From Chloroflexota bacterium (GTDB lineage Bacteria; Chloroflexota; Dehalococcoidia; JACPEP01), in assembly GCA_016183425.1 (NCBI GenBank), contig JACPEP010000011.1, positions 1 through 55,927 of the forward strand: 55,927 nucleotides of DNA. Direction: 5' to 3'. A model generated the notes under the pieces. It was not told the origin of the DNA. It ran no database searches and saw only the letters and a program-made list of their open reading frames with translations. The translations under genes and the position numbers were made by a program. Below, one piece after another: positions 33,132 to 46,580 of this stretch. Position 1 is the stretch's first letter. Every line of letters starts with the position of its first letter.

Positions 33132-34103
33132 ATGATGCTCCCGGGACCTAAGTTCTCCATCATTATCCCGGTTGCCCCCCACCGGGAAGCCGCCGTGCTC
33201 TCTTCCTTGGAGAGGCTCAACTATCATAAGGATGGCTACGAAGTAATTGTAGAGGAAGGGTACAATCCCTCTTTGAATCGCAACCGGGGGGTTGAGAGGG
33301 CTCGCGGCGAGATCCTGGCCTTTGCCGACGATGATTGTTTGGTGGACAAGAACTGGTTGACAGCGGCGGAGGCCTTTTTTGCCCACCATCCAACAGTGGA
33401 AGTAGTGGGAGGGCCACAACTGACGCCCCCCAGCGACGGCTTTTTTGCTCGTGTCTCGGGCTATGTTTTGGCCTCCCTTTGGGGTGCCTATCGAATGAGC
33501 AGCCGTTATCAAAAGGGGGCTACTAATCTAAAGGCCACCGAGCTAAACCTCACGTCGGCCAACTTCTTCATCCGACGCCGCCTTTTTGACAAACTGGCCA
33601 TGTTCGACTCCCGTCTCTACCCCAATGAAGAGACGGAGCTGCTGTGGCGAATAAAGAGGACAGGGGGCGAGATAGCCTACTATCCCGACGTAGTGGTCTA
33701 CCATAAGCGCAGGCCAGACTTCTCTTCATTTGTAAAACAATGTTTCAACTACGGCGCCGGCCGGGCGCGACAGAGCCGTATCACAGGCACCCTCCCTGGC
33801 CTCGGCGTCATCATCCCTCTAATCTTTCTTCTCAACATGGCTTTGCTCCCTATCCTAAGCCAAGTGCATCCTCTCTTCTGGGGGCCCTGGGCAGTTTATG
33901 GCCTAGTGACCGTTTTGGTGTCTTTTAAGGTCTCGGCTCACAATCGTCATCCCCTAGCCTTTGTTCTCCTTCCTTTCCTCTTCTTTACGATCCATTGCGC
34001 CTACCCCATAGGGGTAGTAGTGGAGACGGTCCGCCTCCTATTTTCTCCGCGGCCAGCGCCGGGCACCCATGGGAAGAAGAAAGAACCGAGTATTGGGGCT
34101 TAA
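33132..34103 (+). CDS. Membrane-associated family 2 glycosyltransferase
   Basis: The 323-residue protein starts FSIIIPVAPHREAAVLSSLE. It has the nucleotide-sugar/metal DxD region ILAFADDDCLVDKNW, an acceptor ED-like motif (NEETELLWRIKRTGG) and two or three C-terminal membrane helices (from about residue 225). This is a GT2-type enzyme anchored to the membrane. Sugar unknown. Confidence 0.9.
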   Translation: MMLPGPKFSIIIPVAPHREAAVLSSLERLNYHKDGYEVIVEEGYNPSLNRNRGVERARGEILAFADDDCLVDKNWLTAAEAFFAHHPTVEVVGGPQLTPPSDGFFARVSGYVLASLWGAYRMSSRYQKGATNLKATELNLTSANFFIRRRLFDKLAMFDSRLYPNEETELLWRIKRTGGEIAYYPDVVVYHKRRPDFSSFVKQCFNYGAGRARQSRITGTLPGLGVIIPLIFLLNMALLPILSQVHPLFWGPWAVYGLVTVLVSFKVSAHNRHPLAFVLLPFLFFTIHCAYPIGVVVETVRLLFSPRPAPGTHGKKKEPSIGA

Positions 34104-34106
34104 AAG

Positions 34107-35564
34107 ATGAAGGTGGCCATTGCTTACCCGCCCATAATCAAGAACGGCAGATACCCTCTTCTATCTCAAAACCGCCAGTTTCGCTACAGTAGCTCTCCTT
34201 ATGTCAAGATATTCCCCCTGGTGCCGGCCTCCGCCGCCACCCTTCTCAAGGAAGCCGGGCACCAGGTGCTCTGGTTGGATGGAGTAAACGAGCGGCTTTC
34301 TATCCAAACCTTTTGGGGGCGTCTGAACGCCTTCAGCCCCGACTTGGTGGTCATGGAGACCAAAACTCCCGTATTGGCTCATCATTGGAGCTGGGTGAAG
34401 AATTTGGCAGAGGCGGGATTCAAGACGGTGCTGATGGGTGACCACGTCACTGCCAATCCAGAGGAGTCTTTGGCTAACAGTCCTGTGGACTATGTTGTCG
34501 GCGGCGGCGACTACGATGTCGCCCTGCTGGGGCTGGTGGATCACCTGGAGAGAGGCTCGCCCTTATCGGCAGGGATCTACTTCCGCCGCTATGGTCGGGT
34601 GGAGAGCAGCGGCTCCCCCCAACTGACAGCGAACTTAGATGCGCTCCCCGTCATCGACCGAGAGCTGACCCAGTGGCATATCTACGGCGAGGCCTATCTC
34701 CACCACCCCTGTGCCTATATTCTCACCGGACGTGGCTGTGGGGGAGGGCCTCAAGGGCCGGGACGATGTGCTTTTTGCGTTTGGCAGCACACCCTGTGGC
34801 AGCGTACTCGCCGGTTGCGCTCTCCCAAGAAGGTAGTTCAGGAAATAAAAACCTTGGCGGAGCGCTACCGCGTGAGGGAGGTCTTTGATGACAATGAAAG
34901 CGGTGGGGTATGGAATCAAGAATGGTTAGAGGCCTTTTGCCAGGAGATGAAACGGGAAGGGCTGGTGGGCCGGGTGTACTTCTCTTGCAACGCCCGAGGC
35001 GATAGCCTGACCCCGGAGCGGTGCCGCCTGATGAAGGAGGGCGGTTTCCGTCTGCTGAAGGTGGGCCTGGAATCGGGCAATGAGGAGACCCTTCTCCGCC
35101 TCCACAAGGGAGAGAGTCTGGAGGATATCGTCCGCGGGGTGAAAACGGCCAAAGAGCACGGCTTATGCGTCCTCCTCACCACCATGACCGGCTATCCCTG
35201 GGAAAAGGAGGAGGATGCTGAGAAGACCTATCAAGTGACCAAAAAGTTGATGCTGTACAACACGCAACTGGGCGATTCTCTGCAATCCAGTGTTTTAGTG
35301 CCCTACCCAGGCACCCCACTTTACAGGGAGTGCCTGGAGCGGGGGTGGTTCGACATTGACCCCAGGGACTACAGCCAGTATGACATGTCTCATCCCGTGC
35401 TGCGCTGCTCCTTCGACGCTATGGCGTGGTGTGATCAAATGTGGAATATCCACAAGCACCCCCTTTTCCTCTTGAAAACTCTGCTCCAGGTGCGCTCACG
35501 GGATGACATTACCCTTTTGGGGCGGGGGGTAACCTCCTTGCTGGGCCACAACAAGGATTTTTAG
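34107..35564 (+). CDS. B12-binding radical SAM protein with widened cysteine motif
   Basis: The 485-residue protein has an N-terminal Rossmann-like B12-binding domain (KVAIAYPP, FSPDLVVMETKTP, VLMGDHVTANPE, VDYVVGGGDYDVALLGL) and a radical SAM barrel. The cluster cysteines are C211, C221 and C224, C-x9-C-x2-C, instead of the usual CxxxCxxC. The insertion GGGPQGPGR sits between the first two. VFDDNESGG and LLKVGLESGNEETLLRLHKG match the barrel of B12 radical SAM enzymes. The family often methylates unactivated carbon or phosphorus; the role in the polysaccharide is unknown. Confidence 0.85.
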   Translation: MKVAIAYPPIIKNGRYPLLSQNRQFRYSSSPYVKIFPLVPASAATLLKEAGHQVLWLDGVNERLSIQTFWGRLNAFSPDLVVMETKTPVLAHHWSWVKNLAEAGFKTVLMGDHVTANPEESLANSPVDYVVGGGDYDVALLGLVDHLERGSPLSAGIYFRRYGRVESSGSPQLTANLDALPVIDRELTQWHIYGEAYLHHPCAYILTGRGCGGGPQGPGRCAFCVWQHTLWQRTRRLRSPKKVVQEIKTLAERYRVREVFDDNESGGVWNQEWLEAFCQEMKREGLVGRVYFSCNARGDSLTPERCRLMKEGGFRLLKVGLESGNEETLLRLHKGESLEDIVRGVKTAKEHGLCVLLTTMTGYPWEKEEDAEKTYQVTKKLMLYNTQLGDSLQSSVLVPYPGTPLYRECLERGWFDIDPRDYSQYDMSHPVLRCSFDAMAWCDQMWNIHKHPLFLLKTLLQVRSRDDITLLGRGVTSLLGHNKDF

Positions 35565-35567
35565 CTT

Positions 35568-36401
35568 GTGAAAAAGGTCAGCCGCTATCTCTTTTTGTTA
35601 GGACTTGCCCTGTTGGCATACCTTCTGGCCTCTTTGGACAGAGGACACCTCTGGCAGCTCGGTAAGATGGGGGACTTTCTCAAAATCGTTACCTTACACC
35701 AGGAAGCTGGGGGTGCCCTATCTCACGGGATTTCGGCGGCGGTGGAAAGGATTCTCAATTCTTTGGCCTTGGCCCTTCTGTCGGCCATCGGTCTGCTCTA
35801 CGTCTCGGCCACATTCTCCTTGGGGGGAGGGGTATGGTTATCCCTGGCACCGGTGACTATGGTGGCTCTGGTATTATTCTTGGCCACTCGGCAGGTGGTT
35901 TGGCAGAAAGGGCTGGGCTCCCTGGCGGCAAGGCTGGGAAAACCCCTTCTACAGGGGCGGCTGGGGGGGGTGGAGGGTTTTTACGACGCCATATCCCTGC
36001 TTCAAAAGAGGCCGGAGGCACTGGTAATCGCCTTTCTGCTCCTTAGCACTACGTGGCTCCTTACAGTAGTCAGGGAGTTCCTTCTTTCCCAGGCATTGAA
36101 GCTTCCGGTGGATTTCGGCTATTTTCTCCTCGTTTCGCCAGTGGTGGCGGTGGTTACCCTTATGCCTATCTCAGTAATGGGAGTAGGGACGCGAGACTAC
36201 ACCCTGATACTGCTTCTGGGCACTCTGGGCATAAGTCAGGAGGCGGCGGTATCTCTCTCGTTACTCATGGTGGGGATAGTCACGCTGCCCATGGTGGCGG
36301 CGGGTTCCTTGGTCGCCTGGAAACAGCGACTGGCAGCTCCCCCGGAGGTTAGCCAGTTGGCGGACAAAACAGAAAGAACATGGAGGCAGCGGGACTATTG
36401 A
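35568..36401 (+). CDS. UPF0104/LPG-synthase-TM-like membrane protein, shortened
   Basis: The 277-residue protein has six or so membrane segments and the family C-terminal signatures (SPVVAVVTLMPISVMGVGTRDYTLILLL). It starts at GTG 35568. Compared with the next gene's product it lacks about 60-70 residues: after the first helix the sequence jumps to GGALSHGISAAVERILNSLALAL, where the family has two further helices. This may be an internal deletion. The family is often called flippase-like, but its function is uncertain. The 3' end overlaps the next gene by 22 bases. Confidence 0.75.
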   Translation: MKKVSRYLFLLGLALLAYLLASLDRGHLWQLGKMGDFLKIVTLHQEAGGALSHGISAAVERILNSLALALLSAIGLLYVSATFSLGGGVWLSLAPVTMVALVLFLATRQVVWQKGLGSLAARLGKPLLQGRLGGVEGFYDAISLLQKRPEALVIAFLLLSTTWLLTVVREFLLSQALKLPVDFGYFLLVSPVVAVVTLMPISVMGVGTRDYTLILLLGTLGISQEAAVSLSLLMVGIVTLPMVAAGSLVAWKQRLAAPPEVSQLADKTERTWRQRDY

Positions 36402-37399
36402 AAAAGGTATTCAACTCTAAATATAGAAACCTCTTGCCCCTCATTGGCCTGGGGCTCATGGCCTACCTGCTATGGAAGGTGGGCCTCAAGGAGACCTGGG
36501 AAACCATAAGCCGTATCTCTCTATCTCCTCTACTCCTGATGCCTTTGCTTATGGCCATCTCCTTCTCTATTCAGACTTTCAAATGGCGGTGGCTCCTGGT
36601 GAGACAGGGGTTTCACCTTCCCTTCTTCCATCTGCTAGAGATTCAGATGGTAGCCTTCTTTTACGGATTGGTCACTCCCGCTCGCGTGGGCTACTTTGTG
36701 AAGGTCCTTTATTTGAAAGATGTCACGGGCAGGCCTTTGGGGGCGTGCAGCACCAGCGTGGTCATCGACCGCTTTCTGGATACCGTTTCCCTTTTGTTCT
36801 TCGCTACTGTGGGTGCCAGTATCATGCTTCATCGCTTGTCGGACTCCATATTACCCAGCATTGTCATTGTGCTAATGGTCGTGGGGCTGGGGGGTGTCCT
36901 TATACTGAGCAAAGACCGAAGCGTGCTCGTTTTAGAACTTCTCAAGCGCCTTCCTTTGCCTACCAGTTTAAGAGGGAGGCTTATCTTTACCCTGGATGCT
37001 TTTTACCAGGGTCTTCCCAACTGGTCGAGCCTCGTTGTCCCCTTCATACTGGCTCTGGTGAACTGGGGAATTCTTTATACGCAAATGTACAATGTAGCCC
37101 TGGCTTTGGCCATAGACGTAGACTACTGGGGTTTCATCTTCATCGTTTCCCTGTCCACTATACCCGCCCTGCTACCGGTGACCATAAGCGGGCTGGGGAC
37201 TCGGGAGGTGGCCCTCATCGCCCTTTTGGCACCCTTGGGAGTCAGCAGCCAGGAGGCGGTGGCCATGTCCTTGGTGGGTGTGCTTTTGGTTAGCTACGTG
37301 CCGGGGGTGGTGGGGGCGGTATTGAGCTTCCGCAGAGGGGAAGGGGATAAGGTAGAGAGGGAAATTCTGGGCCATGGGACGATTCACCAAGCTCAGTGA
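36380..37399 (+). CDS. UPF0104/lysylphosphatidylglycerol synthase TM-region family protein
   Basis: The 339-residue membrane protein has about eight segments. Family landmarks are FKWRWLLVRQGF, FFYGLVTPARVGYFVKVLYLKD, STSVVIDRFLDTVSLLF and PVTISGLGTREVALIALLAPLGVS. This is a typical full-length member. Such proteins occur in glycan loci, and transport or flipping of lipid-linked sugars has been suggested. It overlaps the shortened paralog upstream. Low-GC genes begin just after it. Confidence 0.87.
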   Translation: MEAAGLLKKVFNSKYRNLLPLIGLGLMAYLLWKVGLKETWETISRISLSPLLLMPLLMAISFSIQTFKWRWLLVRQGFHLPFFHLLEIQMVAFFYGLVTPARVGYFVKVLYLKDVTGRPLGACSTSVVIDRFLDTVSLLFFATVGASIMLHRLSDSILPSIVIVLMVVGLGGVLILSKDRSVLVLELLKRLPLPTSLRGRLIFTLDAFYQGLPNWSSLVVPFILALVNWGILYTQMYNVALALAIDVDYWGFIFIVSLSTIPALLPVTISGLGTREVALIALLAPLGVSSQEAVAMSLVGVLLVSYVPGVVGAVLSFRRGEGDKVEREILGHGTIHQAQ

Positions 37400-37518: not shown

Positions 37519-38820
37519 ATGGGCAAATATACTATCCTTGATGAAAACGTCGATGCGGCAATTGAGGGGCACCTATCTGTCATAAAAAAGGTCCTGATTG
37601 AAGAGGCACGCCCCATCTCGATAATCCTTTTTGGGGGATTCGGAAAAGGGGAAGGAAGTGTCGAAATTGTAGATGGAAAGATAACCCCCTTTAATGACTA
37701 CGACCTCTACTTGGTTACTAGAAAAAAACTATCCGACAAGCTACTTGATGAACTAACTGTCAAGACCTCACGGGCCATTAATAAGGGGGGGCTTGAGTTC
37801 GCTGAGCATCCCGATAGAGGTTATAACACGACTGATTTCTTTCATGTGGACATCAGAAACATCCTTGAGGACAGATTATCAAGGTTGAATAGAACACAGA
37901 GAACCTTCGAGCTAAAGTATGGGAGTCAGGTTATTTGGGGGGATGAATCTGTTATCGAAAGAATTCCCGCCATCGGGAAAAATGAACTGCCCCTCTCCGA
38001 AGGCATTAGAAACCTGTTTAACAAAATTCATACGTTGCTGTTGTGCATGGACCCAAACAAACTTGCCTACAAGGAATTAGACACTGATGAAAGAAAAATA
38101 ATCATGTTCTATACCGCAAAAGCCTATCTCAGTATTTCGGAGGCGCTACTGATAAGCTGCGGCAGGTTTGAAGCTACCTATTCAAAACGAGTCGAAGCTT
38201 TCCAGGAGATATATGAGACCGAATTTCCTCGGCTGCATAAGCTGCTTCCTGACCTAAAAGAGAAGGTCAAATGGGCAAGAGATTTCAAGGTCAAATTAGA
38301 TTTCCATCAGGTAGGAGATCCCTTCCGACTATGGTTCAAGGCAAGAGATGACATCGGGATAGCCTTCAAGTATCTTATCAAAACCCATTTAGGTCTAAAA
38401 AGTGATGATTGGGAAGGCATCTCGGCGGCAATCTACAATAGACTCCCCTTTTATTACTTCAATTCGTATCTTACCGACATGCTAAGACAACATCGCTTGC
38501 CTGGCTGCATATCGAAAGTCTTATTCCCAACGCAATATTATCTGAATGTTCTTTACACCTATCGATTATGGAAAAAGGGGAAATTGGTGTTTTCGCCCCT
38601 ACTAAGTTGGAGAGACGTAGGATTGAGGCTTGCAATTCCCATGATCCTGTATCTGTTCTCCATGGAAGACAGGGGGACCCTGAACCAAAAACTGGTAGAA
38701 GTGTCTAGGTATTATTTTGGGAAAACGGTTCCTCAAAAAGAAGTGTCGGCCGATCCCCTCGAGTTGAGAATACAAATCCTAGACTTGTACGGGGCGTATT
38801 GTACTCAAAGACTCGTGTGA
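37519..38820 (+). CDS. Nucleotidyltransferase-domain protein
   Basis: ATG 37519 is preferred over the upstream in-frame ATG at 37396, which overlaps the previous gene and translates to non-family sequence. The 433-residue protein has the DNA polymerase beta-type nucleotidyltransferase core: SIILFGGFGKGEGSV followed by FNDYDLYLV (GG and D-x-D metal ligands) and HVDIRNI as the third carboxylate. The C-terminal 250 residues look helical (YTAKAYLSISEALLISCGRF), like the helical domains of antibiotic-type or HEPN-linked transferases. The substrate is unknown. Codon and base usage are clearly more AT-rich than upstream. Confidence 0.75.
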   Translation: MGKYTILDENVDAAIEGHLSVIKKVLIEEARPISIILFGGFGKGEGSVEIVDGKITPFNDYDLYLVTRKKLSDKLLDELTVKTSRAINKGGLEFAEHPDRGYNTTDFFHVDIRNILEDRLSRLNRTQRTFELKYGSQVIWGDESVIERIPAIGKNELPLSEGIRNLFNKIHTLLLCMDPNKLAYKELDTDERKIIMFYTAKAYLSISEALLISCGRFEATYSKRVEAFQEIYETEFPRLHKLLPDLKEKVKWARDFKVKLDFHQVGDPFRLWFKARDDIGIAFKYLIKTHLGLKSDDWEGISAAIYNRLPFYYFNSYLTDMLRQHRLPGCISKVLFPTQYYLNVLYTYRLWKKGKLVFSPLLSWRDVGLRLAIPMILYLFSMEDRGTLNQKLVEVSRYYFGKTVPQKEVSADPLELRIQILDLYGAYCTQRLV

Positions 38821-38853: not shown

Positions 38854-40242
38854 ATGAAGGTACTATTGATAGCCCCCAACTACCGCAAGGTCTATCGATA
38901 TGTCGGCGAAGAAGCGACGATGATTTTACCACCCATTGGATTAGCCTACATCGCCGCATTTCTACGGGAAGAAGGTATTCCAGTTGAAATCCTAGATCTG
39001 GCGGCTTTGAATCTTGACGATAGTCAAACCCAAGAAGAAATCGAGCGACGAGATCCGGACATCGTCGGTATCACGGCGGTTACCAACACTATTGAAGAAG
39101 CATACAACGTTTCGAGACTTGCCAAGAGATCTAACAGGAAAGTCATTGTAGGCGGTGCTCATGCTTCTATATTGCCGGAGCAAACGCTAGAGGAGTGCAA
39201 AGACATCGACATAACCGCGCGAGGTGAAGGGGAACACACCTTACTCGAAATTGCAAGGGGGAAACCACTGAACGAAGTGAAGGGTATTTCTTACAGAGTG
39301 GGGAATACCATAGTAACAAACCCGCCTCGTCCTTTCATCAAAAGGCTTGACGAGTTACCATTTCCGGCGTGGGATCTCCTGCCTTTGAAAAGATATTGGT
39401 CGCCCGGTGTAAAGAGATACCCATTTGCCCTGTTGGTCACCTCGAGAGGTTGCCCATATAGTTGCTCATTTTGTACAACTCGTACCGTTTTGGGAAAAGA
39501 GTTTAGATCTCGTAGCCCCGAGAATGTCATAGCAGAAGTAGATGAGCTAGTGAATAGATATGGAGTTAAGGAAATCAATATTGTTGATGACAATTTTACC
39601 CTTCTTCCAGATCGAGCTGAGAAAATATGCGATCTATTGATCGAGAGGGAATACGATCTTATATGGAAAACGGGGAATGGTATTCGAGCCGATCGCGTGA
39701 CCTATCCACTGATACTAAAGATGAAAAGGGCCGGCTGCTATTTCCTTGCTTTTGGAGTCGAGTCGGGAAACCAAAAAATTCTTGACTTGATAAATAAGGG
39801 GGAAACACTGGAACAGATACGGACCGCAGTAAAATGGGCTAAGGAAGCCAGGTTAATGACGGAGGGGTTCTTCATGATTGGCAACGATGGGGAAGGTGAA
39901 AAGGAGATAAGAGAAACTATTGAATTTGCGAAAGAACTCGACGTGGATTTTGCCCAATTTCAAATCTATATTCCTTTCCCTGGCTCAAGTCATTCCGATA
40001 AAATCATAAGCGAGGGAAATTTACACGCTAGGTCTTGGAAGGACTACAATGCCTTTAACAAGCCGATTTTTTCGTACGGTGGTTTGACTCCTGAGCTAAT
40101 GGAAAGGATGCAAAAGATAGCCTACCGGGAGTATTATCTGCGCCCCCAGATTATATTCCGGAAAACTCTGGAAATTCGCTCCTTCAAACAACTGAAGGCG
40201 TACTTTCGGGCAGCATTGAGTGTTTTGAAATTTCAGCATTAA
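38854..40242 (+). CDS. B12-binding radical SAM protein (paralog 1)
   Basis: The 462-residue protein has an N-terminal B12-binding domain (LLIAPNYRKVYRYVGEE, IVGITAVTNTIEEA, VIVGGAHASILPEQTLE) and a radical SAM domain with the cluster motif SRGCPYSCSFC, then INIVDDNFTLLPDRAEKI and FLAFGVESGNQKIL. It is closely similar over its whole length to the product of 43165-44568. Radical SAM methyltransferases of this type modify many substrates; here a sugar or lipid carrier is likely by context. A GGGAG-type site is upstream. Confidence 0.9.
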   Translation: MKVLLIAPNYRKVYRYVGEEATMILPPIGLAYIAAFLREEGIPVEILDLAALNLDDSQTQEEIERRDPDIVGITAVTNTIEEAYNVSRLAKRSNRKVIVGGAHASILPEQTLEECKDIDITARGEGEHTLLEIARGKPLNEVKGISYRVGNTIVTNPPRPFIKRLDELPFPAWDLLPLKRYWSPGVKRYPFALLVTSRGCPYSCSFCTTRTVLGKEFRSRSPENVIAEVDELVNRYGVKEINIVDDNFTLLPDRAEKICDLLIEREYDLIWKTGNGIRADRVTYPLILKMKRAGCYFLAFGVESGNQKILDLINKGETLEQIRTAVKWAKEARLMTEGFFMIGNDGEGEKEIRETIEFAKELDVDFAQFQIYIPFPGSSHSDKIISEGNLHARSWKDYNAFNKPIFSYGGLTPELMERMQKIAYREYYLRPQIIFRKTLEIRSFKQLKAYFRAALSVLKFQH

Positions 40243-40290
40243 GACCGTAATAGCGTTAGAACGTCTGCTTAGATGAAATCATACGGTCTT
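40241..40290. repeat. Inverted repeat after radical SAM paralog 1
   Basis: AAGACCGTA at 40241-40249 is perfectly complementary to TACGGTCTT at 40282-40290, with a loop of about 32 bases. The first arm contains the stop codon of the radical SAM gene. There is no T-tract. It may be a transcript-end or stabilising structure. Confidence 0.35.
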
Positions 40291-40368
40291 CCCAACCCAG
40301 ACGGCAGGTGCTACATTGTTGCGGAGTCCGAATCTATTTGTGTGCAAAAGGGGGGGTGAGAGCCGAAA

Positions 40369-41511
40369 ATGTTATGTATATACCTGGATGCATTCAAGCC
40401 GGAGTATTTGCAATATACAACATATCTGAAGTCGCTGGCAGAGGAGAATCTGCACGGTGACCTGGAGACAGTCCTAGGATTTACGGGGATTAGCGCTACC
40501 TTTCTCACCGGTCTTTATCCTGATAAGCACAAAGTCTTTGCCATTTTCGATCATTCACCAAATGCTTCGTTAGGCTGGATTCGGAACCTGAGATTCCTGG
40601 GCAGAACCGCTCTCAACTGGCTAGTCAACCTCAAAAGGTTGGCTGAAGACAACCGCTTCTTCTTCTCACTAGCCAAGATTCCTCTAGCGAAAACGCAGCA
40701 TTGGGATGTCTCAATGAAGAAAGCATGGCCACAGCAACACTCCCTTAGCCAAAAGACCCTCTTTGATTACCTACGAGACAACGGCAAGACCTTCATATCT
40801 ATTGATTGGCCCAACATCATTACCAATAATAAAGAGTCCCTTTTTTGGAACCGCTCCAATGAGAACATCTTCCGGTTGGTACAAAAAAACAGAAACAAAT
40901 ATGACTTCTGTTTCGCCCACTTTTTAGACCTTGATTATCTGAGCCACGACTTTAGCGTTGATTCAAGCGCGGCAGTAAACTGCGTAAAGGAACTAGACGA
41001 CTATTTGCGCAGGCTCGATGCCCAAGAGATGGTGATTTTTTCGGATCACGGCATGCTTAAGATCAAGGGCCACATCGACGTTGAAAGAGAGCTGGGAGAG
41101 CTCGACTGGGAGTTTGGTACTGATCTGGTCTACTTTCTAGACTCAACATGCGCAAGATTTTGGTTCAAGAACCCAAGAACACGAACTCTAGTCACTGAGA
41201 AACTTCAAAATATACGATGGGGGCGTGTCTTAACCCAAGACGAGATGGCGGAATACAGATTACCCAGGGATCTGTGCGATTTGTTCTTTCTGGCGGATCC
41301 TGGTTACCTCATACTTCCCAACTTCTTTCAGGGGAGTACTCCGGTCAAGGCCATGCATGGCTATGATCCCAAGCATCCCGACCAACAGGCATTCTACTTA
41401 ATAAAAGGAACATCTGGACAAGTGAATGCTCACATGACCGATATGTTGCCGACAATACTGCGGTTGATGGGGCTGCCCCAGATCGAATGCGATGGCAAAC
41501 CTCTAGTCTGA
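40369..41511 (+). CDS. Alkaline phosphatase-superfamily (phosphodiesterase/sulfatase-like) protein
   Basis: The 380-residue protein has the metal and nucleophile landmarks of the superfamily: CIYLDAFKPEYL, the nucleophile region GFTGISATFLTGLYPDKH, AHFLDLDYLSHD, VIFSDHGML and AMHGYDPKHPDQQAFYLI. No signal peptide is evident at the N-terminus, so it is probably cytoplasmic. It may cleave or transfer a phosphate ester in glycan assembly. A GGGGGGUG-type site precedes the ATG. A decayed relative lies at 42668-42901. Confidence 0.85.
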   Translation: MLCIYLDAFKPEYLQYTTYLKSLAEENLHGDLETVLGFTGISATFLTGLYPDKHKVFAIFDHSPNASLGWIRNLRFLGRTALNWLVNLKRLAEDNRFFFSLAKIPLAKTQHWDVSMKKAWPQQHSLSQKTLFDYLRDNGKTFISIDWPNIITNNKESLFWNRSNENIFRLVQKNRNKYDFCFAHFLDLDYLSHDFSVDSSAAVNCVKELDDYLRRLDAQEMVIFSDHGMLKIKGHIDVERELGELDWEFGTDLVYFLDSTCARFWFKNPRTRTLVTEKLQNIRWGRVLTQDEMAEYRLPRDLCDLFFLADPGYLILPNFFQGSTPVKAMHGYDPKHPDQQAFYLIKGTSGQVNAHMTDMLPTILRLMGLPQIECDGKPLV

Positions 41512-41740
41512 TCAACTGGTGACCTCAGGCCGTACGGTTGCTAGTGAGTTTACGTCGTTTCTGGCAACGTCTAGCAGATGCTCCCTCAGAATAAGGGGGG
41601 ACTTGCTTTTTGTAACAGGACGGAGAAATATGGGCCTGAGCTATTAGAGAGAAAAGGCAGTGTCCCGAAAGTGGTGGAAAAAGGAATCGGCATATCCTAC
41701 CCTATAGGAAAGCCAAATAAAAATAAGGGGGGATATACCG

Positions 41741-42475
41741 ATGGAGAAAGGATACCACAAGGGACGGGAATTGACCATGTCAGAGCTGGGGTTATCGCTG
41801 GAAGAGCTTGCCGGCCAACCGCTGGAGCTATTCGCCCGGGAAGGGGCCAAGCTGCTGTTAACCGTAGCCTTGGAGGAAGAGGTGACCGCCCATCTCAGGC
41901 GGCAGCCCTATGAGCGTAGCCAGGGCAAGGTACGCGGCTACCGCAATGGTCATCGGGATCGTCAGGTAAGCTGCGGCGCCGGTAATATCAAGATACCAGT
42001 CCCCCGGGTCTCAGATACCGAGGAAACCTTTCCTTCCCAGTTACTCGAAGCCTGGCAACGCCGCAGCAAACTCATTGAAGAAACAATCCCTCTGCTTTAC
42101 GTTGGGGGGTTATCGACCAGGGACTTCAAGCGGGCACTCAAGCCACTATGGGGAAAGAGCGGCCTCTCCCGCTCCAGTGTTTCACGGGCAAATAAAGCCC
42201 TCAGGGAAGCCTTCAATAACTGGCGCCGTGACTTATCTCTTGAGGAGATAATTTACCTCTTCCCGGACGGCATCTACCTGGGAGTAAGGGGTAATAGCCG
42301 TAGTAAGGAGGCAGTGCTGGTAGCCCACGGTATCACTCGCGAGGGGAAACGGGTAGTCCGGCACCTGAGCCTCGGGGGACCGAGTAGTGGAAGGGTGTGC
42401 TGAATGACCTGGTGGAGCGTGGCTTAAGACGCCCCCAGCAATTGGTCACCGACGGGAACCCGGGCGCGCCCTTGA
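41741..42475 (+). pseudogene. IS256-family (Mutator-like) transposase, frameshifted and truncated
   Basis: The first 220 codons match IS256 transposases (EVTAHLRRQPYERSQGKVRGYRNGHRDRQV, LFPDGIYLGVRGNSRSKEAVLVAHGITREGKR). Around 42387 one base appears lost. The next frame continues KGVLNDLVERGLRRPQQLVTDGNPGAP, including the second DDE aspartate. The sequence then departs near 42475 and the glutamate end is missing. Clearly inactive. Two copies of AATAAGGGGGGA (41590-41601 and 41722-41733) precede it; no certain terminal inverted repeat was identified. Confidence 0.88.
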
Positions 42476-42667
42476 CTTCACCCTGGACGCTCCTTATACT
42501 GTTTTTCCAGAGCTTCCGTATGGTATGACTAAAGGAAACCAGCCAGGCATCCTGATTGAAGGAGATGATGTAGAATCCAGTGTGGAGAGTCTGCGACTCG
42601 TCCCAGGTTCAGGAAACGGAGATTCCCTACCGTAGAGACTTCGTCGGCGACCCGCTGCGAGCCCTGA

Positions 42668-42901
42668 AGCCTGGCTATTCAGTTCCGTCCCAACTATTTT
42701 CAGCACTTCTTCGTTTCCAGAGCTCTGCACGGCTATGGCGACAACATCCCTGAGGTGGCTGGTATCTTGATCGTCAACGGCCCCGATGTTCCTCAGTGTA
42801 AGATTGTCGGTGCCAGGCTGGTAGACATCGTGCCCACGCTGCTGGATTTTATGGCAGTGGGTACCCTGAGCGCTAGCGACAATATCTCTGTGTTACCTTG
42901 A
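42668..42901 (+). pseudogene. Remnant of a second alkaline-phosphatase-superfamily gene (C-terminal part)
   Basis: An open stretch of 77 codons reads QFRPNYFQHFFVSRALHGYG, then DNIPEVAGILIVNG and LVDIVPTLLDFMAV. This is the end of a type I phosphodiesterase-like protein (HGY metal motif, VDIVPTLL helix) and parallels the C-terminus of the gene at 40369. There is no start codon or upstream body. Coding-like but broken sequence (DFTLDAPYTVFPELPYGMTK) at 42473-42632 may be another part of it. Confidence 0.65.
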
Positions 42902-43104
42902 TGGCTTCTTTCTCGGTGGCGTCAAAAACCCAGACGCCAGGGTGAAAGAGTACCAGTTTGGCAAAGGCACCATCCATCAGGGCTGAGCAGGCAATACCGA
43001 AGAGGTGTTTCAGGTGGTGGACAATATGCTTTCGCGATACAAGGCGGGCCTGCCTCAAAGTCGGGAGGCCCACATCCGCCTCAAGATCAACCTCAGCAAT
43101 AATA
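42897..43104 (+). pseudogene. Possible 5' remnant of a DUF362-type gene
   Basis: After the previous remnant, one frame reads LDGFFLGGVKNPDARVKEYQ and FGKGTIHQG, a stop, and then NTEEVFQVVDNMLSRYKAGL followed by PQSREAHIRLKINLSNN. The KINLSNN ending resembles the start of DUF362 proteins, where a conserved KxNLxN segment opens the domain. The assignment is tentative. An antisense ORF here has no ribosome binding site. Confidence 0.4.
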
Positions 43105-43164
43105 TGGTTCCAAAGAGAGCTTTGAGATTATTCTCTATGTCCCGGGATGAAAGGGGGAATGAAA

Positions 43165-44568
43165 ATGAGGGTTTTGTTAGTCAATCCAAACTATCGGAAT
43201 GTATACGCATACATCGGCAACCAAGACATAACGCCTATCTTCCCGCCTATGGGTATAGCTTATATCGCAGCATTCCTACGCGAAAATGGCATTTCTGTTG
43301 ATATTCTGGATGCTAACGCCCTTGCCCTAAGCTTTACAGAAATCAAGCAATTTATCGAGGGGCATAAAGATATTGAATATGTTGGGATTACGGCGGTAAC
43401 AAATACAATTGAAGAAGCTGGTGAAATTGCCAAACTCTGCTGTCCCTCAATCAAAGTCGTTGTTGGTGGCTATCACTCCAGCGCGCTCCCCCGACAAACC
43501 TTGGAGGAGTTTCCCAGGGTAGATATCGTTGTTCGTGGTGAAGGGGAGATAACGATGCTTGAGCTGGTTAGTGGCAAGCCCCTAGATCAGATTAGGGGTA
43601 TTAGCTATAGAGAAAATCATGAGATTGTTGATAATCCACTCAGGGAACATATATCAAATGTAGAGGTCTTGCCCTTTCCGGCTCGGGATCTCTTGCCTCT
43701 TGATAAGTATGCCAGCTTCGGAGCCAAGAGAACACCTCTCGCTCACATTCTGAGCGAGCGAGGGTGTCCGTTCTCTTGTATATTTTGCATAGATCATCTG
43801 GTACACGGCAAAAAGTTCCGTTATAGAAGCCCAGAGGACATTGTTAGAGAAATAGAATTTTTAATGCAGGAGTATGGCGTCAAGGAAATCGACTTCATTG
43901 ACGACAATTTTACTTTGCTGCCTAATAGAGTGGAGAGGTTCTGTGACCTACTTATCTCCAGAGGCATAAACAAGGAATTACTTTGGAGATGTAGTAATGG
44001 AGTGCGAATTGATAAAATCACCCCGTCTTTGCTCAAAAGCATGAGGAGGGCGGGATGCTATATGGTATCACTGGGTATTGAGTCTGGAAATACACAGATT
44101 CTTACCAATATAAAGAAGCGAATAAAATTGGATCAGGTTGAGATGGCGGTGAAGTGGTGCCAGGAAGCTGGAATCGAAACTAGGGGGCTCTTTATGCTGG
44201 GTAACTTAGGCGACGACAGGCAAACCATGGAGGACACCATCAATTTCGCTAAAAAGTTGGACCTTGACAGCGCCACTTTCCATATAACCATTCCATTTCC
44301 TATGACAGAATACTGGAGGATAATCAAAGAGGAAGGCGAGCTGTTCCCCAACTCGTGGAAGGATTACACCCCTTATAAAAAGGTTACCTTTAAGCATGGC
44401 AGTTTGACCCCAGAATTATTACTTGAGATGCAAAGGAAGGCATATCGAGGCTTTTATCTTAGACCACGCTATATGTTCAGGAAATTCCTGCAAGTGCGCT
44501 CCTTGAAACAACTTAGACTAGCTATTGCTTTCGGAAAAGGTGTCCTAAGATTGCAAGGGCATCGGTGA
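43165..44568 (+). CDS. B12-binding radical SAM protein (paralog 2)
   Basis: ATG 43165 is chosen because AAGGGGG lies 7 bases upstream and the product then starts MRVLLVNPNYRNVYAYIG, aligned with paralog 1. The 467-residue protein has a B12-binding domain (VVVGGYHSSALPRQTLEE), cluster motif SERGCPFSCIFC, IDFIDDNFTLLPNRVERF and MVSLGIESGNTQIL. It looks similar to the 38854-40242 product over nearly all positions, roughly half identical by eye. It is AT-rich compared with the remnants on both sides, suggesting later insertion. Confidence 0.9.
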   Translation: MRVLLVNPNYRNVYAYIGNQDITPIFPPMGIAYIAAFLRENGISVDILDANALALSFTEIKQFIEGHKDIEYVGITAVTNTIEEAGEIAKLCCPSIKVVVGGYHSSALPRQTLEEFPRVDIVVRGEGEITMLELVSGKPLDQIRGISYRENHEIVDNPLREHISNVEVLPFPARDLLPLDKYASFGAKRTPLAHILSERGCPFSCIFCIDHLVHGKKFRYRSPEDIVREIEFLMQEYGVKEIDFIDDNFTLLPNRVERFCDLLISRGINKELLWRCSNGVRIDKITPSLLKSMRRAGCYMVSLGIESGNTQILTNIKKRIKLDQVEMAVKWCQEAGIETRGLFMLGNLGDDRQTMEDTINFAKKLDLDSATFHITIPFPMTEYWRIIKEEGELFPNSWKDYTPYKKVTFKHGSLTPELLLEMQRKAYRGFYLRPRYMFRKFLQVRSLKQLRLAIAFGKGVLRLQGHR

Positions 44569-44693
44569 AAGCACTGGGTCATGTCAAGGTCTCCGCTGAA
44601 TGGACCGGGGAAAAGTGTTTTACTCCCGTTTAGCCAAAGAGAAGGGGTTGCTTCCTCTCCAGATGTGGAGGCAGCAAGAAGACAGGTCTCAGT

Positions 44694-44882
44694 AGGGTGT
44701 ACCGCCTACTGTCCTACCTCTCTGGGTATCCCCCAGGACGCCGGTGCTTTTGCTGACCCAGGTGTATTCAGTGCCTCTACTGCTACATGGTCTGTCCCCA
44801 GGAGGCGATAGGGATACGGGGCAGCCTGGGATACCACGAGGTTCATATGAGCAAATACAAGAAAATGGCAGAGACGCTGTAA
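44694..44882 (+). pseudogene. 3' remnant of a ferredoxin-domain gene, perhaps the other half of the DUF362-type gene
   Basis: One frame reads CIQCLYCYMVCPQEAIGIRG (44763-44822) and continues SLGYHEVHMSKYKKMAETL before a TAA. CxxCxxCxxxCP is a complete 4Fe-4S motif. An in-frame TGA just upstream and the lack of a start show it is broken. DUF362 proteins often end with such a domain. The rest of 44569-44984 shows only decayed sequence and a possible extended -10 element (44885-44893). Confidence 0.5.
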
Positions 44883-44984: not shown

Positions 44985-46580
44985 GTGCTGCCTGACTCTT
45001 CGCTGAGTCGACGCACGGCTTCCTTCGTTGAAGGGATCGACGAACAAAGGGCGATCTCCGAGGCCGGCGAAGGAAGGCACAGGAGCCTAATATGGATAGT
45101 GGTGATCATTGTCGTATTGGCGGCCGGATTGCGCCTCTACCGCCTTGGCGTTCAGAGCCTTTGGTATGACGAGATCGTCGGCTTCTCACGTAGCGATGTT
45201 GCTCAATATACTTTGACAGAAGTTATATTCCGGGTTAACTTTCCTGGGGATTTTCTCAACCCCCCAATCTACTACCTAACTATGAACCTTATGTCCCGTT
45301 TCTCCACCTCCGAATTTGCTCTGCGCCTTCCTTCTGCCATAGCAGGGATTTTAGCCGTTTTCTTCGTCTACCTGGCAGCTAAAGCCTCCTTTGGCCCGCC
45401 CGTGGGCATCCTTGCTGCCCTGCTGATGGCTATCTCGCCTTTTGCCATCTATTTCTCCCAGGAATCACGCCCCCATGGTATCCTTCTCCTCTTCGGTCTT
45501 GCCGCTACCTACTTTTTGACAAGGGCCATCCAAACTCGCAGTCCTCGTCACTGGGCGGCCTATGTCTTCTGCGCTGCTCTCGCCTTCTACTCCGGCTTCT
45601 TGGTACTCACGGCTATGATCTTTCTAGTGCAGAACCTGTACCTCTTCTTCCATTGGCGTACTGACAAGAGGTTGCTTGGCCCATGGCTTGCCAGCCAGGG
45701 AGCCATGGCGCTCCTATTCGCCCCCTGGATGCTGTCCCACCTGACCATCTATTGGCAGATATTGACTTCCCCTTCCCATCCCTTTTACGCTTACACCGAA
45801 GTCTGGCCTGGTCCCTCCCCTCTCCTGGTCGCTGCCATCCTGAAGGATTTCTTGCAAGGGGATTATTTCAATCTGGCCTTCCTCCTCCCCCAACTGCCTC
45901 AGGCAGCCCAGGGTCTCCTTGCCCTCCGCTACGTGCCCGTTTTCATTTACTTACCTATCGTTCTAGTGGGCTTGGTTGTCCGCCGACAGAACCGACTGGC
46001 GCTGGTATTGTGGACTGCCTATCTAGCTCTACCCCTGGGAATCATGTATCTCCTTTCCCTGAAGGCTCCCTTTCTGACCGCCCGTCATGCTAGCTTTCTC
46101 GTCCCTGCTGTCCCCATCCTTTTGGCCATGGGTATTCACACCCTACCGTGGCGTGGGCTGCGCAAGGTTTTGATAGTGGGGCTGGTTGTGGTAAGTGTTG
46201 TCTCGCTGGCGAACTATTACCAGAATCCGCAGTATGAGAAGGAACAGTGGCGGGAAGTGGCCCAGTACATCGCCGGGGTGGGGCAGAAGGGAGACGTGAT
46301 TCTTCTTAATCCCAACTATCTTGAGGTTGCCTTCGATCACTACTATAGAGGTAGCGAACCACGGCACGGGCTGGATCGATGGATTGGGGAGGACGAGGAA
46401 AGAGCGGCGATGACGTTGGAGGAGGTGGTGGTGGGGCATACTCGGGCCTGGCTGATACTAGCCCATCGGCCCTCCAGCGGCCAAAAGCTGAAAGAGATAC
46501 TGGAAGAGAGGCATCCTTTGGTGGAAGAAAAGCGCTTCGTTGGCATAGAGGTGTACCTGTATCGTATCTCCAGCGGCTAG
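44985..46580 (+). CDS. GT39/ArnT-like membrane glycosyltransferase (GT-C fold)
   Basis: The 531-residue protein has a polar N-terminus and then about ten membrane segments. The first lumenal loop carries LYRLGVQSLWYDEIVGFS, the acidic catalytic region of dolichyl- or polyprenyl-phosphate-sugar transferases. It continues RLPSAIAGILAVFFVYLAAK and the LLMAISPFAIYFSQESRPHG loop. It uses a lipid-phosphate sugar donor outside the membrane. It starts at GTG 44985 with AGGGAG upstream. The end of the gene lies inside a perfect palindrome. Confidence 0.87.
   Translation: MLPDSSLSRRTASFVEGIDEQRAISEAGEGRHRSLIWIVVIIVVLAAGLRLYRLGVQSLWYDEIVGFSRSDVAQYTLTEVIFRVNFPGDFLNPPIYYLTMNLMSRFSTSEFALRLPSAIAGILAVFFVYLAAKASFGPPVGILAALLMAISPFAIYFSQESRPHGILLLFGLAATYFLTRAIQTRSPRHWAAYVFCAALAFYSGFLVLTAMIFLVQNLYLFFHWRTDKRLLGPWLASQGAMALLFAPWMLSHLTIYWQILTSPSHPFYAYTEVWPGPSPLLVAAILKDFLQGDYFNLAFLLPQLPQAAQGLLALRYVPVFIYLPIVLVGLVVRRQNRLALVLWTAYLALPLGIMYLLSLKAPFLTARHASFLVPAVPILLAMGIHTLPWRGLRKVLIVGLVVVSVVSLANYYQNPQYEKEQWREVAQYIAGVGQKGDVILLNPNYLEVAFDHYYRGSEPRHGLDRWIGEDEERAAMTLEEVVVGHTRAWLILAHRPSSGQKLKEILEERHPLVEEKRFVGIEVYLYRISSG

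Follow-up and report, generated by a model that had tools for sequence, protein, structure and literature searches.

The 55,927-nucleotide contig JACPEP010000011.1 of a Chloroflexota bacterium (assembly GCA_016183425.1; we call this whole stretch of DNA the window) encodes a nucleotidyltransferase (NTase), two B12-binding radical SAM proteins (rS1 and rS2) and a protein of the alkaline phosphatase (AP) superfamily. Judging from composition, trees and gene order, these four genes very probably form an archaeal-type cassette, a module that was acquired horizontally and now sits within a bacterial exopolysaccharide/glycan cluster. At its core lies the NTase-AP pair. Its two genes travel together in bacteria, archaea and tailed phages and are often fused to encode a single protein. 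In our best explanation of the whole, to which we give a probability of about 0.4, an acquired cassette built on this core would tag a glycan intermediate with a nucleotide, let other enzymes modify it and then remove the tag.

The core pair of nucleotidyltransferase and AP protein

We scanned 84,980 genomes with an AP alignment and obtained 44 loci, 27 of them with members of the AP subfamily proper and 17 with other AP families. The NTase is encoded in the fetched flanks of 25 of the 27 subfamily loci, spread over many phyla, versus none of the 17 others (Fisher, 2e-10). It mostly adjoins the AP gene and lies 5-9 kb away in a few cases, for example in three Verrucomicrobiota. In seven loci, six of them independent because L031 and L032 are near-copies, NTase and AP are fused in one open frame, showing that both act together; L030, a Bipolaricaulota locus, encodes such a fused AP-NTase. 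The near-identical L031 and L032, which stem from the same site, are filed under an Acidobacteria and an Ilumatobacteraceae metagenome-assembled genome (MAG); one of the two is probably misbinned. The NTase is also present in all 12 archaeal AP loci.

These loci were mostly gathered through AP. Starting from the NTase instead, a search of 301 genomes of the phylum returned three full-length matches, all adjoined by AP or, in the window, one gene apart from it, and a viral search returned two matches, both beside AP. Four weak partial matches in the 301 genomes showed no AP within their short flanks. Partial matches to the NTase profile occur in open reading frames (ORFs) of 650-750 amino acids beside GT2-like glycosyltransferase genes in three Chloroflexota (L077, L078 and L079, from G350, G369 and G281, respectively); the L078 ORF begins with a GT2 domain and has no AP nearby. 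These ORFs possibly represent a lineage of GT2-NTase fusions. In the viral contigs L082, L126 and L127, which are of tailed-phage type, AP and then NTase follow directly downstream of the major head protein region and stand between it and glycosyltransferase genes, with terminase, portal-type and head proteins confirmed by PHROGs in L127. A further viral contig, L081, has AP at its end. A single-sequence AP query of the viral contigs gave no match; the AP alignment recovered the phage copies.

Of the 27 subfamily loci from the genome scan, 1 has a B12 radical SAM gene close to the pair, versus 6 of the 12 archaeal loci. Radical SAM proteins are therefore partners of the pair rather than part of its core. 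A preliminary description of this DNA had proposed a module of NTase, B12 radical SAM and AP genes, and their adjacency indeed recurs outside this lineage, in an archaeon (G669); what it had missed is that NTase and AP are the invariant part and the radical SAM protein a variable partner. We found no described NTase-AP or NTase-AP-radical SAM glycan system in the open-licence literature, which is weak evidence, and the pair appears never to have been described before. It is also carried by cultured strains (Cerasicoccus and Virgisporangium).

The window AP gene is intact, as had been recognized, and matches PF01663 (Phosphodiest) with 57.9 bits against a gathering cut-off of 23 (E 1.7e-15); all 21 aligned members of the subfamily match this family. 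The closest PDB folds to its AF2 model (pLDDT 92.3) are Xac NPP and the ENPPs (E 2e-19, TM 0.71). With this NPP fold go six metal ligands, D7, D189, H193, D226, H227 and H330, which are all kept in 31 members with one substitution. No signal peptide is visible, so the protein is predicted to be cytoplasmic.

No Pfam or NCBIfam model matches the window NTase or its family at large, yet this family keeps its tie to AP across DPANN archaea, bacteria such as Verrucomicrobiota, and tailed phages. Conserved motifs and a predicted fold confirm the nucleotidyltransferase previously placed at 37519, and its start there (MGKYT) is backed by archaeal orthologs that start with the same five residues. The closest PDB folds to its AF2 model (pLDDT 82.5) are the aminoglycoside adenylyltransferases AAD(9) and AadA (E 1.2e-4), and the NTase fold is combined, as in these enzymes, with a DxD motif and a catalytic base (D60, D62 and D111). 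The motifs GGFGxGEG and NDYD and the third carboxylate would fit an active enzyme.

Both superfamilies are also found in defence and toxin-antitoxin systems. Other fold matches of the NTase include HalB and MNT-HEPN, and PglZ is weakly matched by 3 of the 21 AP members. An anti-phage defence or toxin-antitoxin island is nonetheless highly improbable: PADLOC has no match for NTase or AP, the radical SAM proteins weakly match one candidate model only, and the neighboring genes are glycan genes.

The cassette and its archaeal relatives

The GC content at third codon positions (GC3) is 0.49 in the NTase gene, 0.46 in rS1, 0.55 in AP and 0.47 in rS2, as opposed to 0.56-0.77 in every other intact gene measured, so that these four genes, and no other intact gene measured, have a foreign composition. 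In the archaeon G669, the NTase gene, an rS1 ortholog (56% identity) and AP share a strand and keep the order that they have in the window, with other genes interspersed, and a second B12 radical SAM gene (50% to rS2) lies divergently, 111 bp from the NTase gene. A profile search found strong matches to the AP subfamily in 12 of 236 genomes of the archaeal phylum of a Pacearchaeota record, L025. In quick trees with some long branches, the window NTase is nested in DPANN archaea (support values 97 and 99), and the window AP groups with L025 and L138 (88). We took the archaeal status of the contigs from the collection's grouping and from visual inspection of neighboring ribosomal-protein-like genes. 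On the simplest reading, the genes probably moved from archaea to this bacterium; the window is clearly an example of a multi-gene cassette common to one archaeon and one bacterium.

In four archaeal loci (L025, L133, L135 and L137) the NTase-AP pair is accompanied by relatives of rS3, a third B12 radical SAM protein encoded upstream of the cassette, and of flippase-like protein B; the first three also contain relatives of the window's GT2 gene. The four loci lie near STT3/AglB oligosaccharyltransferase and GlcNAc-1-P-transferase-type genes, with Pfam confirming STT3 in L025 and L135 and the GlcNAc-1-P-transferase-type gene in L025. A search of the window's own genome found no STT3, so the cassette would serve another glycan route there.

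The two radical SAM genes of the cassette are intact. Their products contain the Pfam domains B12-binding and Radical_SAM as well as CxxxCxxC motifs and are 52% identical over 465 amino acids (E 7e-172), bearing out their description as paralogs. Their best NCBIfam matches fall far under the cut-offs: rS1 and rS2 score 224.3 and 219.1 bits against HpnJ (TIGR03471, cut-off 577.6), and 208.6 and 202.8 bits against BchE (TIGR02026, cut-off 481.35). The preliminary description had gone further and taken the paralogs, together with an AP remnant that precedes rS2, as the outcome of a local duplication of an AP-radical SAM module whose second copy then decayed. The tree rejects this account. Within it, rS1 joins the first G669 gene (100/100), rS2 joins the second (98/96), and all four unite (97/95) apart from the other radical SAM paralogs of the window genome and from the closest matches among 400 genomes of the phylum. 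Because rS1 and rS2 each pair with a different archaeal gene, the paralogs had already diverged when the bacterial and archaeal cassettes separated; as judged from this topology, they are old paralogs that moved together, not a fresh duplication. For the radical SAM pair, local duplication is thus refuted unless this lineage was the source of the G669 copies. Since, in addition, we found a single AP gene in G669, and the remnant is both distant from the intact AP and native in GC3, we consider the duplication account very improbable.

Upon close examination of the region between AP and rS2, PF00872 covers the N-terminal part of the truncated IS256 transposase seen earlier (41741-42403), which continues by eye in another frame to ~42470. 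The second AP C-terminus, formerly assigned to 42668-42901, is the decayed end of an AP-superfamily gene that is not clearly a copy of the intact one: the stretch 42683-42898 resembles AP C-termini with 30% identity over 57 amino acids to the intact gene (E 4e-8) and 17.8 bits against the AP profile, and a weak co-linear piece lies upstream in another frame. The remnant reaches no Pfam family in a Pfam scan, no intact parent was found among 60 relatives, and the window genome yielded no further copies of the insertion sequence (IS)/remnant stretch; the decayed stretches that flank the remnant (42403-42560 and 42902-43147) matched no Pfam family either. The GC3 values of the IS fragment (0.65) and the remnant (0.61) are native-like, so this material does not share the cassette's history. 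It is better read as debris of native composition than as a decayed second cassette.

A possible tag, modify and untag route

In the fosfomycin route, 2-hydroxyethylphosphonate (2-HEP) bears CMP as an ester; Fom3, a B12 radical SAM enzyme, methylates it in this form, and FomD sets it free (PMC8158854). From this precedent, together with fold and gene order, we infer the first three steps of a transient nucleotide-tag mechanism, which we put forward tentatively. First, the NTase, which folds like adenylyltransferases that act on hydroxyls of sugars or aminocyclitols, would in the cytoplasm move a nucleoside monophosphate (NMP) from a nucleoside triphosphate onto a glycan building block or a lipid-linked sugar. 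Second, a variable modifier would act on the NMP-tagged intermediate; here these would be the two HpnJ/BchE-like B12 radical SAM enzymes (by methylation, ring contraction or rearrangement), and in some archaea an NAD-dependent epimerase whose gene lies exactly between those for NTase and AP. Third, the NPP-like AP would cut the nucleotide phosphodiester, removing the tag. Finally, neighboring glycosyltransferases and flippases would assemble and export the glycan. The position between NTase and AP is held by rS1 in the window, by its ortholog plus other genes in G669, and by the epimerase gene in L132 and L135, and L130 has an epimerase-like gene and a methyltransferase gene just upstream.

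Several points weigh against this explanation. The NTase matches its closest folds modestly (TM 0.33-0.35 when normalized by query length and about 0.5 by target), and the third carboxylate is missing in some members. The column of the AP nucleophile, assigned by alignment, holds T39 in the window (codon 40483-40485) and threonine or serine in only 17 of the 31 members, with C, Q, V, E, Y, G or W elsewhere and the greatest variety in archaeal and fused members, suggesting that untagging may use other chemistry. Either this column is not the nucleophile in the AP subfamily, or some members use water or the substrate directly. Most NTase-AP loci of the genome scan lack a B12 radical SAM gene, which would make such enzymes at most one of several modifiers. 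Lastly, most of the sequences used, including the window, come from MAG assemblies.

NTase-AP fusions without any radical SAM gene in several phyla, single ORFs that join AP to a GT2 domain in two Chloroflexota, and phage loci that hold glycosyltransferase, AP and NTase genes only would also suit a writer and its eraser. Here, the NTase would cap a hydroxyl of the glycan or its lipid carrier with NMP, in a lasting or regulated manner, and AP would uncap it, serving chain-length control, protection or regulation, with the radical SAM enzymes acting on sugars independently. We regard this as possible but rather doubtful, and it does not account for the modifier genes that separate NTase from AP in the window, G669, L132 and L135. 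An unlikely further option is a two-step phosphorylation or phosphodiester transfer, in which the NTase would make an NMP ester and AP would cleave its nucleoside side or transfer the phospho-group, so that a phosphate or phosphodiester would stay behind on the glycan. Phosphotransferases do occur among AP-superfamily enzymes, and members that lack the threonine or serine may allow direct attack by the acceptor; however, the closest AP folds are nucleotide phosphodiesterases that release NMP.

By extension of the tag mechanism, and more speculatively, the NTase-NPP pair might represent a new cross-domain strategy of glycan assembly that tags sugars or lipid-linked sugars for interchangeable remodeling enzymes (B12 radical SAM enzymes, epimerases, methyltransferases), untags them afterwards and has been exchanged among archaea, bacteria and phages. 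This would point to a new chemical step in the making of surface glycans, archaeal N-glycans included, and would give B12 radical SAM enzymes that have no assigned substrate a concrete, testable context.

Genomic setting and comparison with known systems

The window belongs to an assembly of 2.7 Mb in 52 contigs that is 95% complete. Its glycan/exopolysaccharide cluster, in which some gene names were assigned by eye, extends from 22.8 to 49 kb and comprises a tyrosine kinase/Wzz-type gene, a polymerase, glycosyltransferases, DegT, Wzx, two LPG_synthase_TM flippase-like proteins, and PMT_2 and YfhO membrane proteins. The genes run in the order GT2, rS3, flippases, NTase, rS1 and AP (Table 1), with rS3 more distant from rS1 and rS2 than these are from each other. 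Elsewhere in this genome, another glycan region (L019 and L020; G000:C43:28000-62000) contains four further B12 radical SAM genes amid glycosyltransferases, DegT and methyltransferases. In the same class, the rS3 ortholog of L155 (G037:C19; 42-45%) is not part of a glycan cluster and is accompanied by neither NTase nor AP.

Table 1. Features of the window in and around the cassette
Feature	Position	Strand	Evidence
GT2 glycosyltransferase	33132..34103	+	relatives (33-44%) in 3 of 4 archaeal rS3 loci
rS3, B12 radical SAM protein	34107..35564	+	Pfam; 37-44% to L025, L133, L135, L137; clade 100/100
LPG_synthase_TM flippase-like membrane protein A	35568..36401	+	PF03706
LPG_synthase_TM flippase-like membrane protein B	36380..37399	+	PF03706; relatives (27-34%) in six archaeal NTase-AP loci
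NTase, undescribed family; GGFGKGEG...NDYD...HVDI; D60, D62, D111	37519..38820	+	alignment; AF2 pLDDT 82.5; ANT/AadA-type PDB fold
rS1, B12-binding radical SAM protein, between NTase and AP	38854..40242	+	Pfam; 56% to archaeal G669 gene, clade 100/100
AP-superfamily, NPP-like metal-dependent phosphodiesterase (predicted)	40369..41511	+	PF01663; AF2 pLDDT 92.3; Xac NPP/ENPP PDB fold
IS256 transposase remnant, truncated, frameshifted	41741..42470	+	PF00872; reading frames; one copy in genome
AP-superfamily gene, decayed C-terminal end	42560..42901	+	alignment to AP; AP profile; native-like GC3
rS2, B12-binding radical SAM protein, ancient paralog of rS1	43165..44568	+	Pfam; 50% to second G669 gene, clade 98/96
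PMT_2 family membrane glycosyltransferase	44985..46580	+	PF13231; archaeal L025 relative, 29% over 164 aa

The single proteins each have a characterized counterpart from which they depart. The NTase shares with AAD(9) and AadA (ANT(9) and ANT(3'')) the NTase fold, the DxD motif and a third carboxylate on the following strand; it differs from them in its ~14% identity, a long extra C-terminal helical region, the GGFGxGEG signature and its linkage to AP and glycan genes. AP resembles Xac NPP and the ENPPs in fold and in all six metal ligands. Unlike them, it is predicted to be cytoplasmic, carries the subfamily motif DSTxARFW, varies at the nucleophile position across its subfamily and is fused or adjacent to an NTase. 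HpnJ and BchE give the closest class for rS1 and rS2, at about 220 and 205 bits, well below the cut-offs, and we saw no hopanoid or chlorophyll genes nearby.

As to whole systems, the clusters of archaeal N-glycosylation (AglB) are the likeness seen in DPANN archaea, where relatives of rS3, GT2, the flippase, NTase and AP adjoin STT3/AglB and a GlcNAc-1-P-transferase-type gene. By contrast, the window genome is without STT3, and the window's cluster is of the bacterial Wzx/Wzz type. The fosfomycin pathway (the Fom1 cytidylyltransferase domain, Fom3 and FomD; PMC8158854) offers the likeness in logic: a nucleotidyltransferase, a B12 radical SAM enzyme and a nucleotide-ester hydrolase act in sequence on an NMP-tagged intermediate, a sequence that gene order suggests for the window as well. 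Here, however, the NTase has an ANT/AadA-type fold, the hydrolase has an NPP fold and the setting is the assembly of a glycan.

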